64,000 nucleotides of DNA from Vulcanococcus sp. Clear-D1 (lineage in GTDB: Bacteria; Cyanobacteriota; Cyanobacteriia; PCC-6307; Cyanobiaceae). The notes under the pieces are model-generated. The model was not told the origin of the DNA. It made no database searches and was given only the letters and a program-made list of their open reading frames with translations. Shown here piece by piece: positions 2,419-9,410 of this stretch. The stretch is from positions 1 through 64,000 of the forward strand of contig NZ_JACVZV010000003.1 in the NCBI RefSeq assembly GCF_014654725.1, given 5' to 3'. The position numbers were made by a program, and so were the translations under genes. Position 1 is the first letter of the stretch, and each line of letters opens with the position of its first letter.

Positions 2419-2913
2419 ATGCGCTTCCTCTCTTCTGTTCAGCCGGCCCTAGCGGCCCTTCTCCTGATCGCCCCGGCGGCCGTGGCGGCGGCTCAGCCCC
2501 TGGTTGTTGAGCCCTACCGCTCTCCTGCGACGCAGGGCTCTCCACCCTGGCCCCAGTGCCGTGGTTGTGACCTGCGCGGTGCCGATCTCAGCGGCTTGCT
2601 GCTCAATGGCCTTGATCTGCGGGAGGCGGATCTGCGCGGTGCTGATTTGCGCGGCAGCAACCTGGAGGGTGCGGATCTCAGTGGTGCTGATCTGCGCGGC
2701 GCACTGCTGCAGCAGAGCTGGCTGAGCAACGCCGATCTCAGTGATGTGGATCTGCGCCAGGCCAATTTGCGCGATGCCGTGTTGATTCAGGCCCTGACCC
2801 CTGGTGTGCAACTCGAGGGCGCTGTGTTGATCGGTGCCGACTTCACCGGCAGTGATCTGATGATTGGCGGCGAGGAGGCTGGCCCTGATCCGCTTCCCCC
2901 GCTGCGCCCCTAG
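2419..2913 (+). CDS. secreted pentapeptide-repeat protein
   Basis: A 164-residue protein with an N-terminal signal peptide (hydrophobic run about residues 8-25, likely cleaved after AVAAAQ). It is followed by a PQCRGC pair of cysteines and then roughly twelve pentapeptide repeats of the A(D/N)LRG type (about residues 48-140), predicted to form a right-handed quadrilateral beta-helix. Such proteins are abundant in the cyanobacterial periplasm and lumen and mostly have no known function. A purine-rich stretch (aaggagagagg, 2394-2404) lies about 14 bases upstream of the ATG, farther than usual for a ribosome site. The gene ends tail-to-tail with the LptD-like gene, overlapping it by 4 bases. Confidence 0.8.
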   Translation: MRFLSSVQPALAALLLIAPAAVAAAQPLVVEPYRSPATQGSPPWPQCRGCDLRGADLSGLLLNGLDLREADLRGADLRGSNLEGADLSGADLRGALLQQSWLSNADLSDVDLRQANLRDAVLIQALTPGVQLEGAVLIGADFTGSDLMIGGEEAGPDPLPPLRP

Positions 2914-5900
2914 AAGCCGCGGCGTTGAATGGCCTGATCCTGCGCCAGGCCAGGCGGGGTGTAGGGCACGAAGGGCACACCGGTGCCGCGGAAGTTGAAG
3001 TCGTTGAGCTTTACCCGCACGCCGCCGATGCCCTGATAGGGGCTGTAGTAAACGGCCAGCTCATAGGCACGCCGCTGCCAGCGCAGCTCCACGTAGGAAT
3101 CCACCACATCACCGAAGAACTCGGAGTTGGGATCGGTGTTGACGCCGATGCCGCCGCTCAGCATCAGCGGTCCCACCAGCTGCTGGGTGAGCCCCAGGCC
3201 GATGGTGCTGAGATCCACGATGCGATCAAAGCTGAAGGGGCTGACGCCCTGGCGCAGCGTGCCACCGCCGGTCACGGTGAACTGGGTGTAGTCGAAGAAG
3301 TTGTTCTGCAGGTGTCCCAGCGTGAGGGTGGGGCCGCCGCTGATGCTGAAGGCCTGCTGACTGGTCCCATCGCCGTAATAGGCTAGGTTCATGTTCAGGT
3401 TGGTGTTGATGGCCAGGCCTGGCACGATCGGCGTGGAGCTGAAGCGCGTGGCCAGTTCCGTTTCGGGATTGAGTGGTTTGCCGGTCCAGAGCGGCAGCCG
3501 GCTGTTGATCGAGCCGTAGACGTTGGCTCGCCACAGATCCGCCAAGTTCACGGAGTTGAACTCAGTTCCCTGGAAGTTGCCGAAGCCAGCGCGCCAGAAC
3601 ATCGTGTTGGTGAGTTTGCCCAGGTTGGGGAGATCGCGGGTTTGCTCTAGCGAAGCCCCCAGAGCGGAATACACGTCCTGCTCACCGAGGGAGCCGTTCC
3701 ACACCCGATAGCGATAGGCCCCGAAGCCACGGGCCGTGGTGCGGCCGATCACCGGCAACCGGAAAGAGCGGCTGATATCCCCCCAGCTGCGGGTGCCATT
3801 GGCGAAGTTGCTTGGATCAAATGTGGAGAAATCACCCACCACATCGATCTTGAGCCCGAGCACGCGCGTGTCGAAGCGCGCCAGCAGGCCGAACAGATCG
3901 CCGATGCGGGTGGGTTGGCTCTGGGGAGAGCTGCCGATTGGCAGGCCCGGCAACACATAGCTGCTGGTGGTGCCATCGAGGGCCCGGCGCACCATGAACT
4001 GGGGCTGCAGATTGAGGGTGCCGCGCTTGCCCACTTCCAGTGGCTTGAGGTTGTAGCCGAGGTAGAAGCCATCTCGATCTTCTGAATCCACCGCCATCAC
4101 CCAGCGGTTTTCCACTTCGCGGTCTTTCTCGAAGCGCTGGTTGCGTTGCAGCGCAATCGGCAGGCGATCTTCCAGGATCAGTTGATTGCTCTTGGCCTGA
4201 ATCACCAGATCGCCATTGGGCTCCTGGCGTGCCACCACACCACTGGCATCCACCCACGACTGCGCCGGTGTGTAGGGGTCATTGGTGAAGGCAGCTCGAT
4301 CGGCCCGCCAGCCGTCGGGGGTCACGCTCAGCCGGTTGGCCTGGATCCGCCAGCGGCTGATGGTGCCGCTCACGAACTTATTGCCAATCTCAGTGTTGAG
4401 TGGTTGAAGCTGTTGTGGGCGAACTTGTCCGTAGGTCACTTCTGCTTCCGTGATGAGATCAGCATCAGGATCCACACCTGCTCTTCGTTCAACGGAGAGG
4501 CTCTGCTGGAACTGCAGGTCACTCACCCGCTGATCGACCGCTGCGGCAATCGCCTTGTGCCGCAGTGCTTCCTGCCGCCCCGGGCTGAGCGCGCTGGAGC
4601 GGCTCCCAGCGTTGGGCACGTCCAGCGGCGTTCCTGTGGCTTGCTGGGCTGAACCGAGGGCCACCTGATTGAGCTGATCGCTCAATGGTTTGGATTGCGG
4701 CTGCCCCCCGCCCGGGCAGCCAGCCGGTGGCTGCATCGCCACGCTGAACCGTGGCGACGGGCTGCTGCCGAAGCGATAGCGCATGCCCACCAGGTAGGCG
4801 TTGCTGCCTTCGCTCACCCCGCTGTAGGTGCCGTAGGCGCCCGATCGGTGGTGGATGCGGCCCACCAACGACCATTCCGGCCGGATCAGGGCCTCTACCT
4901 CAAAGCCGAGGTAGTTCAGAAACGTGGTGTAGTTCTCGCGGAACGTTTTCTCGTAATTGCTGACGTTGGTGTTGAGGCTCACGCCCTCAAAGAACGCCAG
5001 GCTCAGCCAGGGCTGCAGCCAGGCCCGCACCCCGAAGCTCCAGGTGAACTCGCCGAAGGTTTGGGCTGGTGTGTTGGCGTAGGGAACCTTTTGGTTGAAT
5101 TCACCGCCCTGTTGTTCGTAGGCGTGGTGCAGCAGGGCGTTGGAATCGAATTCCAGAGCCAGGGGGCCGGCGCGCAGCAGGCGCTTGTTCAGGCCTGCAC
5201 CCCAGAGGTATTCCGGCCGCATGCGGCCGTTGAACAAAAAGGTGTCGCCGAAGTTGGCGCTGATCATCTGGCCGCCCCAGACGGTGGCGGCCCATGGGTA
5301 GGGGCGCCAGTTCGGCACCGGGGGAAGCGGCGGCGGGCAAGCCATCGTCTGGGCCTGCGGTGATAGGGCCACCGGAGGCATTTGCCAGGCATCAGCCGGA
5401 ATGGCTTCCGGAAGGCCGGAGGGGAGGTTGAGCGCTGCGCTCTCCCCGTTGAGCGGTGTTGCACTCAGCTCATCCGCCACCCGCGCATCGGGATCCGGCA
5501 GCGGTTCAGCGTCGAAGCTCACATCGGCATCGAACGGTGGCGCCGACGCTGACCAGTAGCTCAGCGGGAGGAGCGGGGCTGCGGGTGTCTCGCTTGGGTT
5601 GAGATCGAGGGCGGCGCTGTCGAGATCGACAACGCCGTAGACCTCGTCGATCTCACCGCTGTTTTCGATCAGGCTGTAGCGGAGCTTGCTCGCCTGCAGG
5701 TATTGATTGCCGCGTTGGAAGCGAACCCGGCCACTGGCGTAGATCGTGCGGGTGGCGCTTTCGTATTCGATCCGATCCGCCAACAGGCGGCCGCCGGCCA
5801 GGATTACCTTCACGTTGCCAACCGCCACAAACCGATTGGCCAGTAGGTCGAAACCCTGGCTGTCGGCGCTGAGGTCGATGTCGATGGGTGGCTTCTGCGC

Positions 5901-6071
5901 CGGAGTGGCCTCAATCAGGCCAGCAGCAGACGATGGGCGAGCTGGCTGGTCGGAGGCCGCAGGCGCCGCGGGTGATGGCTGCTGCTCGGCTGCAACAGCG
6001 TGACCACCGATCAGAACCGATGCCGATCCCAGCACCGCAATCAAACGGCGGACGCGTTGCGGGACAGGCAC
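2910..6071 (-). CDS. LptD/OstA-like outer membrane protein (DUF3769) with an extra internal barrel-like region
   Basis: This 1053-aa protein has a signal peptide (about 1-28) and an LptA/OstA-like beta-jellyroll region (about 62-150, with VGNVKVILAGGRLLADRIEY). A long middle region precedes a second OstA-like part (about 545-640) and a C-terminal stretch of alternating hydrophobic strands expected to form the LptD barrel. It probably inserts LPS or related glycolipid into the outer leaflet of the outer membrane. Residues about 255-436 look unlike LptD: they resemble a small outer-membrane barrel ending with RIHHRSGAYG and GSNAYLVGMRYRF, reminiscent of PagL lipid A deacylase. psbI lies 71 bases upstream on the same strand. 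The DUF3769 assignment is firm; the nested-domain idea is inference. Confidence 0.8.
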   Translation of the reverse strand: MPVPQRVRRLIAVLGSASVLIGGHAVAAEQQPSPAAPAASDQPARPSSAAGLIEATPAQKPPIDIDLSADSQGFDLLANRFVAVGNVKVILAGGRLLADRIEYESATRTIYASGRVRFQRGNQYLQASKLRYSLIENSGEIDEVYGVVDLDSAALDLNPSETPAAPLLPLSYWSASAPPFDADVSFDAEPLPDPDARVADELSATPLNGESAALNLPSGLPEAIPADAWQMPPVALSPQAQTMACPPPLPPVPNWRPYPWAATVWGGQMISANFGDTFLFNGRMRPEYLWGAGLNKRLLRAGPLALEFDSNALLHHAYEQQGGEFNQKVPYANTPAQTFGEFTWSFGVRAWLQPWLSLAFFEGVSLNTNVSNYEKTFRENYTTFLNYLGFEVEALIRPEWSLVGRIHHRSGAYGTYSGVSEGSNAYLVGMRYRFGSSPSPRFSVAMQPPAGCPGGGQPQSKPLSDQLNQVALGSAQQATGTPLDVPNAGSRSSALSPGRQEALRHKAIAAAVDQRVSDLQFQQSLSVERRAGVDPDADLITEAEVTYGQVRPQQLQPLNTEIGNKFVSGTISRWRIQANRLSVTPDGWRADRAAFTNDPYTPAQSWVDASGVVARQEPNGDLVIQAKSNQLILEDRLPIALQRNQRFEKDREVENRWVMAVDSEDRDGFYLGYNLKPLEVGKRGTLNLQPQFMVRRALDGTTSSYVLPGLPIGSSPQSQPTRIGDLFGLLARFDTRVLGLKIDVVGDFSTFDPSNFANGTRSWGDISRSFRLPVIGRTTARGFGAYRYRVWNGSLGEQDVYSALGASLEQTRDLPNLGKLTNTMFWRAGFGNFQGTEFNSVNLADLWRANVYGSINSRLPLWTGKPLNPETELATRFSSTPIVPGLAINTNLNMNLAYYGDGTSQQAFSISGGPTLTLGHLQNNFFDYTQFTVTGGGTLRQGVSPFSFDRIVDLSTIGLGLTQQLVGPLMLSGGIGVNTDPNSEFFGDVVDSYVELRWQRRAYELAVYYSPYQGIGGVRVKLNDFNFRGTGVPFVPYTPPGLAQDQAIQRRGF

Positions 6072-6362: not shown

Positions 6363-9300
6363 ATGCCGGAGGGCCCAGACAGCGCTGTTCGCTCCTGGAT
6401 TGAAACGTTTCAGGCCCAATCCAGGCTGGATCTCAGGCCGCTCTGGCGGCGCGCAACCCCATCGGGCGGGAGCGATGTGGCGTTGTTGGATCCCTGGGGA
6501 GCCCGTTGTCGCCCCGATTGGCATGCCCGCGGTCTGGTGATCTGGCCCCGCGGTGGGCAGTGGCTGCAGTTGGAATTGGAACTGCTCTGCCCGCCGGCCT
6601 GGCAGCAGCGCCAGCAGGGCGATCGCCTGGCGCGTCTGGTGCTGCGCTGGTGGGCCGATGCCGTGGAGCTGCGGGTGGATGGCGAGCGGGTGCATCAGGG
6701 CGATCTGTTCGATACCGCCTGCCGTTGGCCCCTGCCGGCGGCTTGGTGGAGCGGGCAGCCGCTGCAGCTGGAGTTGCGTCTGCGCTCCCCCCTCCATGAC
6801 GACGGTGCACTGATCGCCAGTGCGGTGGAGCAGGAGCCCCTCGATCCGGCAGACCCCACCGGTGTGCTGGTGGCGCCGCGGCTGGCCCTTGCGGCCCAGC
6901 GCCTGCCGGCGGATGCCCAACCGGGACTGCTTCAACAGCTCCAAGCTTTGGATCCTGTCGATCCCGCTGCTGCTGCTGCGGCTGCTGCGCTGGAGCCCTG
7001 GCTGCGGCAGCAGGTTCAGATCCATCCGCCCAATGCGGTGCAGGTGCTCGGCCATGCCCACCTGGATCTGGCCTGGCTCTGGCCGGTGGCGGATACCTGG
7101 CAGGCGGCAGTGCGCACCTTTGAATCGGCGTTGGCGCTGATGGAGCGCTTCCCGCAGCTGCATTTCGCCCACTCCACCCCGGCGCTGTACGCCTGGATCG
7201 AGCAGCACCGACCAGCCTTGTTCGCTCGGCTGCGAGCGGCGATGCAGGCCGGGCGTTTTGAGCCGATCAACGGCCCCTGGGTGGAGAGCGATTGCGTGCT
7301 GATCGGCACCGCCTCGTTGCTGCAGCAATTCGCCCTGGGCCAGGCCTACAGCCGCACCCGTTTCCCTGAGTGGGAGCACAACCTCTGCTGGCTGCCCGAC
7401 AGCTTTGGCTTCAGCGCCGGGCTGCCGGCGGTGGCCCGCAGCACCGGGGTGGAATGGTTCTGCACCCACAAGCTCGCTTGGAACAGCGGCCAGCCTTTCC
7501 CCCACCGCCTCTTCCGCTGGCGCAGCCGCTGCGGCAGTGAGCTGTTGGCACTGGCCACCGCGCCGATCGGCACCGACGGTGATCCGCTGGCGATCGACGC
7601 CTACAGCCGCGCCTGGCAGGCCGCCACAGGGGTGGAGCAGGCCCTGTGGCTGCCCGGCGTGGGCGATCACGGCGGCGGGCCCACCGCCGAGATGCTCGAG
7701 CAGCTCCAGCTCTGGCAGCAGCAACCCTTGGCCTGCCCCCAGACCCACGGCAGCCTGCGCCAGTACCTGGCGGGGTTGAAGCCGCTGGCACCGCAGCTGC
7801 CGGTGTGGCGCGATGAGCTCTATCTGGAGTTGCATCGCGGCTGTGCCACCAGCCGGCCGGATCAGAAGCGCCATAACCGCAGCCTGGAGCGACTGCTGCG
7901 GCAGGCGGATCTGGCTCTGGCGCTGCAGCACCTGTTCGCTGCGCAGGGGGCACCCGTGGCACCCGCCGACTGGCGGCCTCTGCTGTTTCAGCAGTTTCAC
8001 GACATCCTTCCCGGCACCTCCATCCCGGAGGTGTTCGAGCAGGCCGAACCCCAGTGGCGTGCCGCCCGGCGGCAGGCGCGTCGTTGCCGCGATCAGGCGT
8101 TGCAGGCTCTGCTTCCCGAGCACAACGGCTGGTGGTTGGCCCAATTGCAGCTGCAGGCTGCCGGGCCCTGCACCCTGCGCCTGCCAGCGGGGGTCTGGCG
8201 ATTGAGCGATGCCGAGGCCGCCCTGCCCCAGCAGCCGGCCCCAGGAGGCGGCACCTGGGTGCAGCTCGCCCTGCCGGCCGGTGTGGCAGCAGTGCCCTTG
8301 GAGCGGGGGCCGAGCGAGGCAGTGCTGGCGCTGGAGCCGGCTGAGCTGCAGCATCCGGTGGCTCTTCACACCAGCGAGCAGGGCTGGCAGCTCAGCAATG
8401 GGCTTGTGCGGGCACAGTTCGGCCCTGCTGGCCTGGAGCAGCTCTGGGGGGCGGATGGTGTGCCGCAGTTGGCGGGGCCGTTGGCCTGGTGCCGCTGGAA
8501 CGACCACGGTGAGTTTTGGGATGCCTGGGATCTCGCCGCGGATTACCGCCAGCACCCGCTGCCGCTGCAATGGCAGAGCGGCCCCGATCTGGCGGAGCAG
8601 GGGCCGCTGTGTACGCGGTTGGTCTGGCGCGGCCGTTGCGGCAGCAGTCGGCTGCGCCTCGATGTGCAGCTGCGCGCGGCATCGCCCTGGCTGGAGCTTG
8701 TGCTGCAAGTGGATTGGCGTCAGCGCCATGAGCTGCTTCGCTTGGAGCTGCCCCTCGCGCAACCGGCTTGCCGCTACGCGGCTGACACGCCCGGCGGCGT
8801 GATCGAGCGCCCCGCTGCTGCCGTGAATGGCCGCGAGCAGGCCCGCTGGGAAGTGCCTGCCATCAGTTGGCTTGCCTCGCAGGCGGAGGCCGGTGGCGGT
8901 CTGGCCGTGCTGCTGGATGGTCCCCAAGGGGTGTCGGCGGAGCGTGAGCGCCTGGGGGTCTCGCTGCTGCGGGCACCCACCTGGCCAGATCCTTCAGCGG
9001 ATCAAGGTCTGCATCGACTGCGGCTGGCCCTCTCGCCCTGCGCCCAGGGCTGGCGCCAGCAGGCGGTGCCCCAGCAGGCCCAGCGCTTCCGGGAGCCTGT
9101 CTGGTTGCGCCCTGCTTCGGGTGGTGACGCGCCCGGGGGATGGCCGGATTTGGATCTGGGCTCTGAGGCACTGCAGATCGTGCAGCTGCAACCGCTGGAG
9201 CAACCCGGAACGGCGCGGCTGACGTTGCAAAACCTCAGCCCGCAGCGCCAACAGCTGCGCTGGCCTGAGGGTTGGAGCGCCCGCCGCGAGCTGGCTCCTG

Positions 9301-9410
9301 AGCCAGTGGCCTCCACAGCGTCTGCAGGAGCGGCCGATCGGCTGCTGCCCTGGCAGCTCGGCAGTTGGCTGGTGAGCTGTGGGAGTGGCCCTCTTGATCA
9401 GTCGTCGTGA
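6363..9410 (+). CDS. glycoside hydrolase family 38 alpha-mannosidase
   Basis: A 1015-aa class II alpha-mannosidase. The catalytic domain shows the zinc-binding motif GHAHLDLAW (His231, Asp235). The nucleophile is in WLPDSFGFS (Asp346). Further ligand/active-site histidines are seen in CTHKLAW and GVGDHGGGPT. A middle helical part (RRLLRQADLAL region) and a long C-terminal beta-rich domain follow. There is no signal peptide, so it should be cytoplasmic and act on alpha-mannosides or recycled glycans. It lies between psbI and psbN, and its last 13 bases overlap the 3' end of psbN on the other strand. The physiological substrate is unknown. Confidence 0.88.
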   Translation: MPEGPDSAVRSWIETFQAQSRLDLRPLWRRATPSGGSDVALLDPWGARCRPDWHARGLVIWPRGGQWLQLELELLCPPAWQQRQQGDRLARLVLRWWADAVELRVDGERVHQGDLFDTACRWPLPAAWWSGQPLQLELRLRSPLHDDGALIASAVEQEPLDPADPTGVLVAPRLALAAQRLPADAQPGLLQQLQALDPVDPAAAAAAAALEPWLRQQVQIHPPNAVQVLGHAHLDLAWLWPVADTWQAAVRTFESALALMERFPQLHFAHSTPALYAWIEQHRPALFARLRAAMQAGRFEPINGPWVESDCVLIGTASLLQQFALGQAYSRTRFPEWEHNLCWLPDSFGFSAGLPAVARSTGVEWFCTHKLAWNSGQPFPHRLFRWRSRCGSELLALATAPIGTDGDPLAIDAYSRAWQAATGVEQALWLPGVGDHGGGPTAEMLEQLQLWQQQPLACPQTHGSLRQYLAGLKPLAPQLPVWRDELYLELHRGCATSRPDQKRHNRSLERLLRQADLALALQHLFAAQGAPVAPADWRPLLFQQFHDILPGTSIPEVFEQAEPQWRAARRQARRCRDQALQALLPEHNGWWLAQLQLQAAGPCTLRLPAGVWRLSDAEAALPQQPAPGGGTWVQLALPAGVAAVPLERGPSEAVLALEPAELQHPVALHTSEQGWQLSNGLVRAQFGPAGLEQLWGADGVPQLAGPLAWCRWNDHGEFWDAWDLAADYRQHPLPLQWQSGPDLAEQGPLCTRLVWRGRCGSSRLRLDVQLRAASPWLELVLQVDWRQRHELLRLELPLAQPACRYAADTPGGVIERPAAAVNGREQARWEVPAISWLASQAEAGGGLAVLLDGPQGVSAERERLGVSLLRAPTWPDPSADQGLHRLRLALSPCAQGWRQQAVPQQAQRFREPVWLRPASGGDAPGGWPDLDLGSEALQIVQLQPLEQPGTARLTLQNLSPQRQQLRWPEGWSARRELAPEPVASTASAGAADRLLPWQLGSWLVSCGSGPLDQSS

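Follow-up and report, generated by a model that had tools for sequence, protein, structure and literature searches.

Known systems

The LptD proteins of the DUF3769 branch are the LPS inserters of cyanobacteria and consist of an LptA-like repeat, a jelly-roll half and a large barrel. Two further proteins of the outer membrane (OM) are of interest for the locus described here. The lipid A deacylase PagL is an eight-stranded barrel that works with a Ser-His-Glu triad. The second one is OMPLA, a barrel of twelve strands, for which PMC5043575 gives the residues His142-Ser144-Asn156 on the barrel exterior.

The protein analysed here is encoded in the window, i.e., the whole stretch of 64,000 nucleotides from Vulcanococcus sp. 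Clear-D1 (contig NZ_JACVZV010000003.1, positions 1 to 64,000). It has all three parts in common with the other LptDs of the DUF3769 branch, but adds to them an eight-stranded barrel and a flanking cysteine pair in the periplasmic linker. This nested-barrel architecture is a new variant of LptD, and no description of a barrel nested in LptD was found in the open-licence literature, as judged by titles and abstract openings among the matches listed.

The LptD protein of the window

The following features describe the host protein and the position of the barrel in it:

2910 to 6071, minus strand: lptD homologue with LptA-like repeat, nested eight-stranded barrel and DUF3769 barrel (open reading frame, Pfam)
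5607 to 5888, minus strand: LptA/OstA-like periplasmic repeat, residues 62–155 (weak Pfam matches, model strands and alignment with 20 LptDs lacking the insert)
5337 to 5339, minus strand: Cys245, before the barrel, in 67 of 67 full-length sequences
4770 to 5294, minus strand: predicted nested eight-stranded barrel, residues 260–434 (AlphaFold2 model, VIA-align)
4716 to 4718, minus strand: Cys452, after the barrel, in 67 of 67 full-length sequences
2994 to 4367, minus strand: DUF3769, the LptD jelly-roll half and large barrel, residues 569–1026 (Pfam)

The frame starts with GTG and codes for 1053 amino acids, and by its DUF3769 profile the product is judged to be a member of the DUF3769/LptD family, the match reaching E 5.6e-123 over positions 2–444 of the 444 in the profile. 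Pfam matches in the LptA-like part are weak (LptD_N on residues 98–133, E 0.052; OstA_2 on residues 68–141, E 0.087), and the strands of the repeat are present in the full-chain model. This model was aligned on E. coli LptD (9ia0_A) with Z 14.3 over 411 residues in the model range 6–967, at an rmsd of 11.9, and the other long alignments on solved LptDs had high rmsd as well. As for the neighbours of the gene, a pentapeptide-repeat-like frame (2419–2913) is convergent with lptD and overlaps it by four bases, while the large frame adjoining lptD (6363–9410) reads by eye as a glycosyl hydrolase of the alpha-mannosidase kind.

Fold and position of the nested barrel

The initial annotation, made from the sequence of the window, had proposed that a PagL-like barrel is nested at residues 255–436 (4764–5309), and the segment does lie there, with the quoted C-terminal strands and the residues His408, Ser410 and Glu421 all present in the translation. 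AlphaFold2 prediction of the barrel segment (78 sequences) gave eight strands with a mean pLDDT of 91.5 and pTM of 0.86, located at full-length residues 260–271, 283–301, 304–317, 337–353, 356–367, 384–397, 400–410, and 422–434. The model of the 994-residue chain (residues 60–1053, mean pLDDT 75.2) has the eight strands in the same places as one unit, and with separate strands in both predictions the claim of a distinct barrel inside an LptD-like protein is borne out. On the evidence of these models it is near certain that residues 260–434 form a separate barrel nested in the periplasmic half of LptD. The surrounding segment (residues 250–440) gave no usable match in Pfam, NCBIfam, PHROGs or PDB sequences.

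The barrel occupies the linker that joins the LptA-like repeat to the DUF3769 barrel; in the barrel-less LptDs (20 read) the LptA-like repeat is followed by a shorter linker and then by DUF3769. The nested barrel is presumably inserted in the membrane, and its placement in the linker is topologically possible because a barrel with eight strands has its N- and C-terminus on one side, which here would be the periplasmic one. The view that there is no second barrel at all, the segment either belonging to one LptD barrel or having arisen from faulty assembly, can be considered highly improbable. The eight strands stay together in the full-length model, and the DUF3769 match extends over nearly the whole profile even in LptDs that lack the segment. 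Nor is the arrangement a product of chance: 177 relatives were found in the search of genome contigs, and in the best 80 of the 177, which were analysed, the domain is located in one long open frame (at least 490 amino acids) in 80 of 80 loci; 70 of these 80 frames are complete and measure 950–1205 amino acids, and 7 end at a contig edge after the domain, leaving the LptD part partial or unseen.

Proposed active site and comparison with PagL and OMPLA

The residues below were counted in 67 full-length fused sequences and in an 18-row family alignment:

4857 to 4859, minus strand: Arg405, three residues before His408, on the lumen side as predicted by alternation; 67 of 67 fused copies
4848 to 4850, minus strand: His408, proposed catalytic histidine, end of strand 7; 67 of 67 full-length sequences, 18 of 18 family rows
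4842 to 4844, minus strand: Ser410, proposed nucleophile; 67 of 67 full-length sequences, 18 of 18 family rows
4809 to 4811, minus strand: Glu421; 67 of 67 fused copies, 2 of 8 stand-alone proteins
4800 to 4802, minus strand: Asn424, proposed third residue of the triad, start of strand 8, in the register of PagL Glu140; 67 of 67 full-length sequences, 18 of 18 family rows

Strand alternation in the model would put His408, Ser410, and Asn424 on the lipid side, where they may be in contact with each other and share their face with Trp, Leu, Gly, Ile, Tyr, Val, Met, and Phe, and would turn Arg405, His407, and Arg409 to the lumen. The place of Arg405 is taken by Gln in the stand-alone proteins of Aminobacter and Chelativorans.

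In the initial annotation His408, Ser410, and Glu421 were set parallel to His126, Ser128, and Glu140 of PagL. The conserved His-x-Ser pair agrees with this in fused sequences and family rows alike, and Glu421, too, is invariant among the fused copies; however, Glu421 was rejected as the catalytic acid because it stands in the wrong register and occurs in so few of the stand-alone proteins, and it is Asn424 that takes the place of Glu140. In register, the end of strand 7 reads V-G-V-R123-A-I-H126-Y-S128-N-A in PagL and L-V-G-R405-I-H-H408-R-S410-G-A here, and the start of strand 8 reads D137-G-I-E140-S-Y-S-L-F and E421-G-S-N424-A-Y-L-V-G, respectively; the aligned range ends ten residues beyond E140 or N424. 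The Glu140 place is itself variable in 12 PagL homologues (Glu in 3, Asp in 5, Asn in 3, Thr in 1).

The likeness to PagL thus includes eight strands, an Arg-x-x-His-x-Ser at the end of strand 7 with Arg405 corresponding to Arg123, a third residue where strand 8 begins, and, by alternation, the presence of all three site residues on one hydrophobic face. The barrel of the window differs in having Asn instead of Glu and a loop longer by two residues and in sitting inside another protein. Asn129 and Asn136 of PagL, invariant in 12 of 12 homologues aligned, are missing from the nested-barrel family, where the Ser is followed by Gly (or Pro) and the loop lacks such an Asn. The resemblance to OMPLA consists in the His-x-Ser…Asn triad, placed on the barrel exterior in OMPLA and, by alternation, probably also in the nested barrel, so that judging from sequence His408-Ser410-Asn424 would be a Ser-His-Asn site of the OMPLA kind; the distance from His to Asn is 14 in OMPLA versus 16 here, and OMPLA has twelve strands as compared with the eight of the nested barrel.

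In structural comparison PagL is narrowly the best match of the predicted barrel. VIA-align, used as a second look at the Foldseek matches, was run with the domain on 999 chains and placed PagL (2erv_B) first with Z 16.5 at 1.9 Å and 135 of 146 residues aligned, followed by a designed barrel (15.3; 1.5 Å, 115 residues), OprF (15.1; 3.0 Å), and OmpA (14.8; 3.2 Å). With the whole-chain model PagL was fourth at Z 16.1, tied with four small barrels (16.9, 16.6, 16.4, and 15.5). In Foldseek itself OmpA, Ail, and NanC were leading and PagL was not among the 50 matches listed, where the TM-score by query length was at most 0.55.

The profile evidence was not specific for PagL. The search of the segment against the PagL profile (PF09411), proposed together with the nested-barrel claim, gave no match in Pfam for the protein, the segment, or any of 14 family members, the sole barrel-family hit among these 14 being OMP_b-brl with E 0.0039. 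Two alphaproteobacterial stand-alone relatives reached E 0.026–0.027 against PF09411 (about 15 bits versus a cut-off of 23), which was not accepted as proof. In hhalign the family matched PagL with P 0.0037 (P 0.0013 with 21 rows), and the score was 28.3 against 12 PagL proteins versus 28.0 (P 0.0033) against 17 generic cyanobacterial OMP_b-brl proteins; the eight stand-alone rows alone scored 27.2 with PagL versus 24.3 with the OMP_b-brl control, and alignment A4 alone gave E 0.39 against PagL. Reversed controls scored 12.0 and 13.3 and, further, 14.3 and 17.4. When PagL match columns only were used, the score went down to 20.2, a value reached by 4 of 200 column-pair shuffles. Since the OMP_b-brl control scores the same and PagL itself scores 52.6 against OMP_b-brl, the resemblance was rejected as evidence specific for PagL.

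The motif R-x-x-H-x-S-x-A-loop-G-x-[E/D/N]-strand-[F/Y/W/L], relaxed so as to cover both families and missing some stand-alone members, was found in 952,654 residues of distinct frames in 140 frames of the nested-barrel family, 11 PagL, and one spurious frame. A PagL (PF09411, E 2e-16, above the cut-off) is present in one cyanobacterium (L030, 1486–2406, minus strand); at E 0.001 the 292 genomes searched in the phylum gave no other PF09411 match.

Of the PagL-like claim, therefore, the structural match and the His-x-Ser pair stood, while the PF09411 profile, the sequence specificity, and Glu421 did not. The barrel may work like PagL or OMPLA, yet it cannot be filed as PagL, because it has no profile match and the profile comparison is no better than that with OMP_b-brl.

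Conservation of the barrel

The suggestion in the initial annotation that the barrel could be an inactive relic is contradicted by its conservation. Mean identity to the window protein in 66 relatives was 69.7% for the barrel, compared with 59.5% for the LptA-like part, 57.5% for DUF3769, and 37–40% for the linkers. Pairwise dN/dS of the barrel was 0.035–0.245 in six comparisons; it stayed below the DUF3769 value in 6 of 6 pairs and below the value for the LptA-like part in 5 of 6, the exception being L039 (0.086 versus 0.056). Decay was rejected on the basis of the low dN/dS and because no other region of the protein is conserved as well as the barrel, which, with His408, Ser410, and Asn424 invariant in it, is considered no relic.

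Distribution and history

The nested barrel is carried by many Synechococcus and Cyanobium and by some Prochlorococcus. When the barrel protein was used as a query in 60 relatives, matches were obtained in 28, of which 26 were in LptD-type frames (the window included; two cut by contig ends) and the other two were a stand-alone gene in G047 and a 144-amino-acid frame with three stops in G048, which was not counted. DUF3769 itself was detected in 55 of the 60 relatives and in 42 of 42 genomes of good quality. In the genus of the window the barrel is present in 21 of 25 genomes; the four without it are all 62–86% complete, three of them having no DUF3769 match and one only a fragment. The family profile matched 23 of 291 genomes of the class: 19 of 36 in the family of the window, with frames of 947–1226 amino acids, and 4 of 255 outside this family, where the frames of 207–363 amino acids are stand-alone genes. 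The 20 cyanobacterial LptDs read that lack the barrel belong to six genomes in the family of the window and to fourteen genomes of other cyanobacteria. Two records met in this survey deserve mention: L065 is titled as a Bifidobacterium breve MAG, a name that is probably wrong since the record contains the fused LptD of cyanobacteria, and in G042 (C7:137507-138984) the DUF3769 match is in three pieces, which suggests a broken or misassembled lptD.

Stand-alone relatives, characterized by the HHRSG motif, were found in alphaproteobacteria and a few cyanobacteria. They represent the same domain with 22–38% identity to the window segment (five measured) and are free-standing, with a signal peptide recognized by eye, whereas the window barrel is inside LptD. 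The alphaproteobacterial genes lie on plasmids of Skermanella, Aminobacter, Chelativorans, and Agrobacterium and are recorded as "hypothetical protein" or unannotated; the cyanobacterial ones belong to four genomes (L027 913-1980, L243, L244, and L245). The gene of G047 (L027) has a long proline-rich N-terminal region and is followed downstream by a frame that looks by eye like isoleucyl-tRNA synthetase. The HHRS…N… end is common to eight stand-alone proteins, the last residue being aromatic and once Leu. No relative of the barrel was found in the phages and viral contigs searched. These stand-alone homologues suggest themselves as the source module of the nested barrel.

In the DUF3769 tree (37 rows) the presence and absence of the barrel needs three changes, and the starred branches force at least two. 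Five barrel-less rows of the family, i.e., all except G032, are within a branch that also holds the barrel-bearing Prochlorococcus L072 (strain MIT 0701), L074, and L114, and from this position they would be Prochlorococcus as well. The patchy distribution, as far as sequence comparison goes, fits one gain after the split of the G032 lineage with one or two subsequent losses; most simply, the barrel was inserted once, in an ancestor of the group of Synechococcus, Cyanobium, and Prochlorococcus. The tree position of G032 is less sure because of its long branch.

Cys245 and Cys452 are the sole cysteines of the window protein, one on either side of the barrel, and probably form a disulfide. A cysteine pair at this place is absent from 19 of the 20 barrel-less LptDs, some of which have cysteines elsewhere, and the barrel-less LptD of G032 (L172, C13:13500-17400) has two Cys-Pro motifs at the flanking place with 28 residues between them. 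A simple reading of these sequences would be that the disulfide loop is older than the barrel, which was later placed in it; alternatively, the barrel was possibly lost later from the G032 lineage.

Lipid A and possible function

LpxC and LpxD are present in the genome and no LpxL/M-type acyltransferase was found in it, and lipid A is therefore expected to have no chains other than the primary ones. There should be four of these, including two that are O-linked, and three would remain after the action of a 3-O-deacylase. Tri-acylated forms of lipid A have reportedly been described for Synechococcus. In the reviews PMC4113827 and PMC4515613 lipid A of Synechococcus CC9311 and WH8102 is given four acyl chains, which corresponds to the undeacylated product of the pathway and is a point against constant and complete deacylation.

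The reading preferred here, at a tentative level, is that of an LptD with a tethered, lipid-facing serine esterase that would act on lipid A. A small OM barrel was inserted, most simply a single time, into the periplasmic linker of LptD, and one chain would cross the OM as two barrels, the eight-stranded one with its ends in the periplasm coming first and the large one of LptD second. Below the membrane the LptA-like repeat would thereby come close to the jelly-roll half, the Cys245-Cys452 disulfide probably holding them in place. On the exterior of the small barrel, at the depth of the outer leaflet, the three site residues would make up a serine esterase site of the PagL/OMPLA kind, and its most likely job would be to act on lipid A next to the LPS gate of LptD and to cleave off an acyl chain in ester linkage (3-O, PagL-like).

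The barrel could instead be structural, with a non-catalytic His-x-Ser, and either anchor the LptA-like domain to the OM by the LptD gate or aid LptD folding, perhaps replacing LptE. This would agree with the PagL-specific similarity not borne out by profile, with the two missing PagL asparagines, with the open LptD frame kept in the six barrel-less genomes of the family, and with the four acyl chains given for the two Synechococcus strains in PMC4113827 and PMC4515613, but a structural role alone leaves unexplained why an apparently lipid-facing His-x-Ser…Asn is invariant and is retained even in stand-alone proteins free of LptD. The same three residues in relatives unfused to LptD, together with the Ser-His-Asn triad described for OMPLA in PMC5043575, would also suit an esterase of outer-leaflet glycerolipids that clears misplaced membrane lipids round the site of LPS release; the number of strands, however, is the eight of PagL and not the twelve of OMPLA, and the fusion to an LPS inserter would point to LPS as the substrate. 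Because the four chains count against complete deacylation, activity on lipid A is placed a little under an even chance, a structural role is regarded as possible though doubtful, and action on glycerolipids as unlikely.

Significance

LptD is a core machine of the OM, and a barrel nested in it raises the question how two barrels of one chain fold. The broader picture, in which a two-barrel polypeptide would unite the LPS inserter with a lipid A deacylase so that each LPS can be edited while leaving LptD, may be held as a rather doubtful possibility; it would be a covalently linked machine for insertion and modification, carried by many Synechococcus and Cyanobium and lost from a part of the Prochlorococcus branch. 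If the barrel is an enzyme, a single molecule would link the export of LPS with the remodelling of lipid A, and this in photosynthetic cells that are very abundant. Since a part of the Prochlorococcus branch lacks the barrel, its effect on lipid A can be compared among natural strains.
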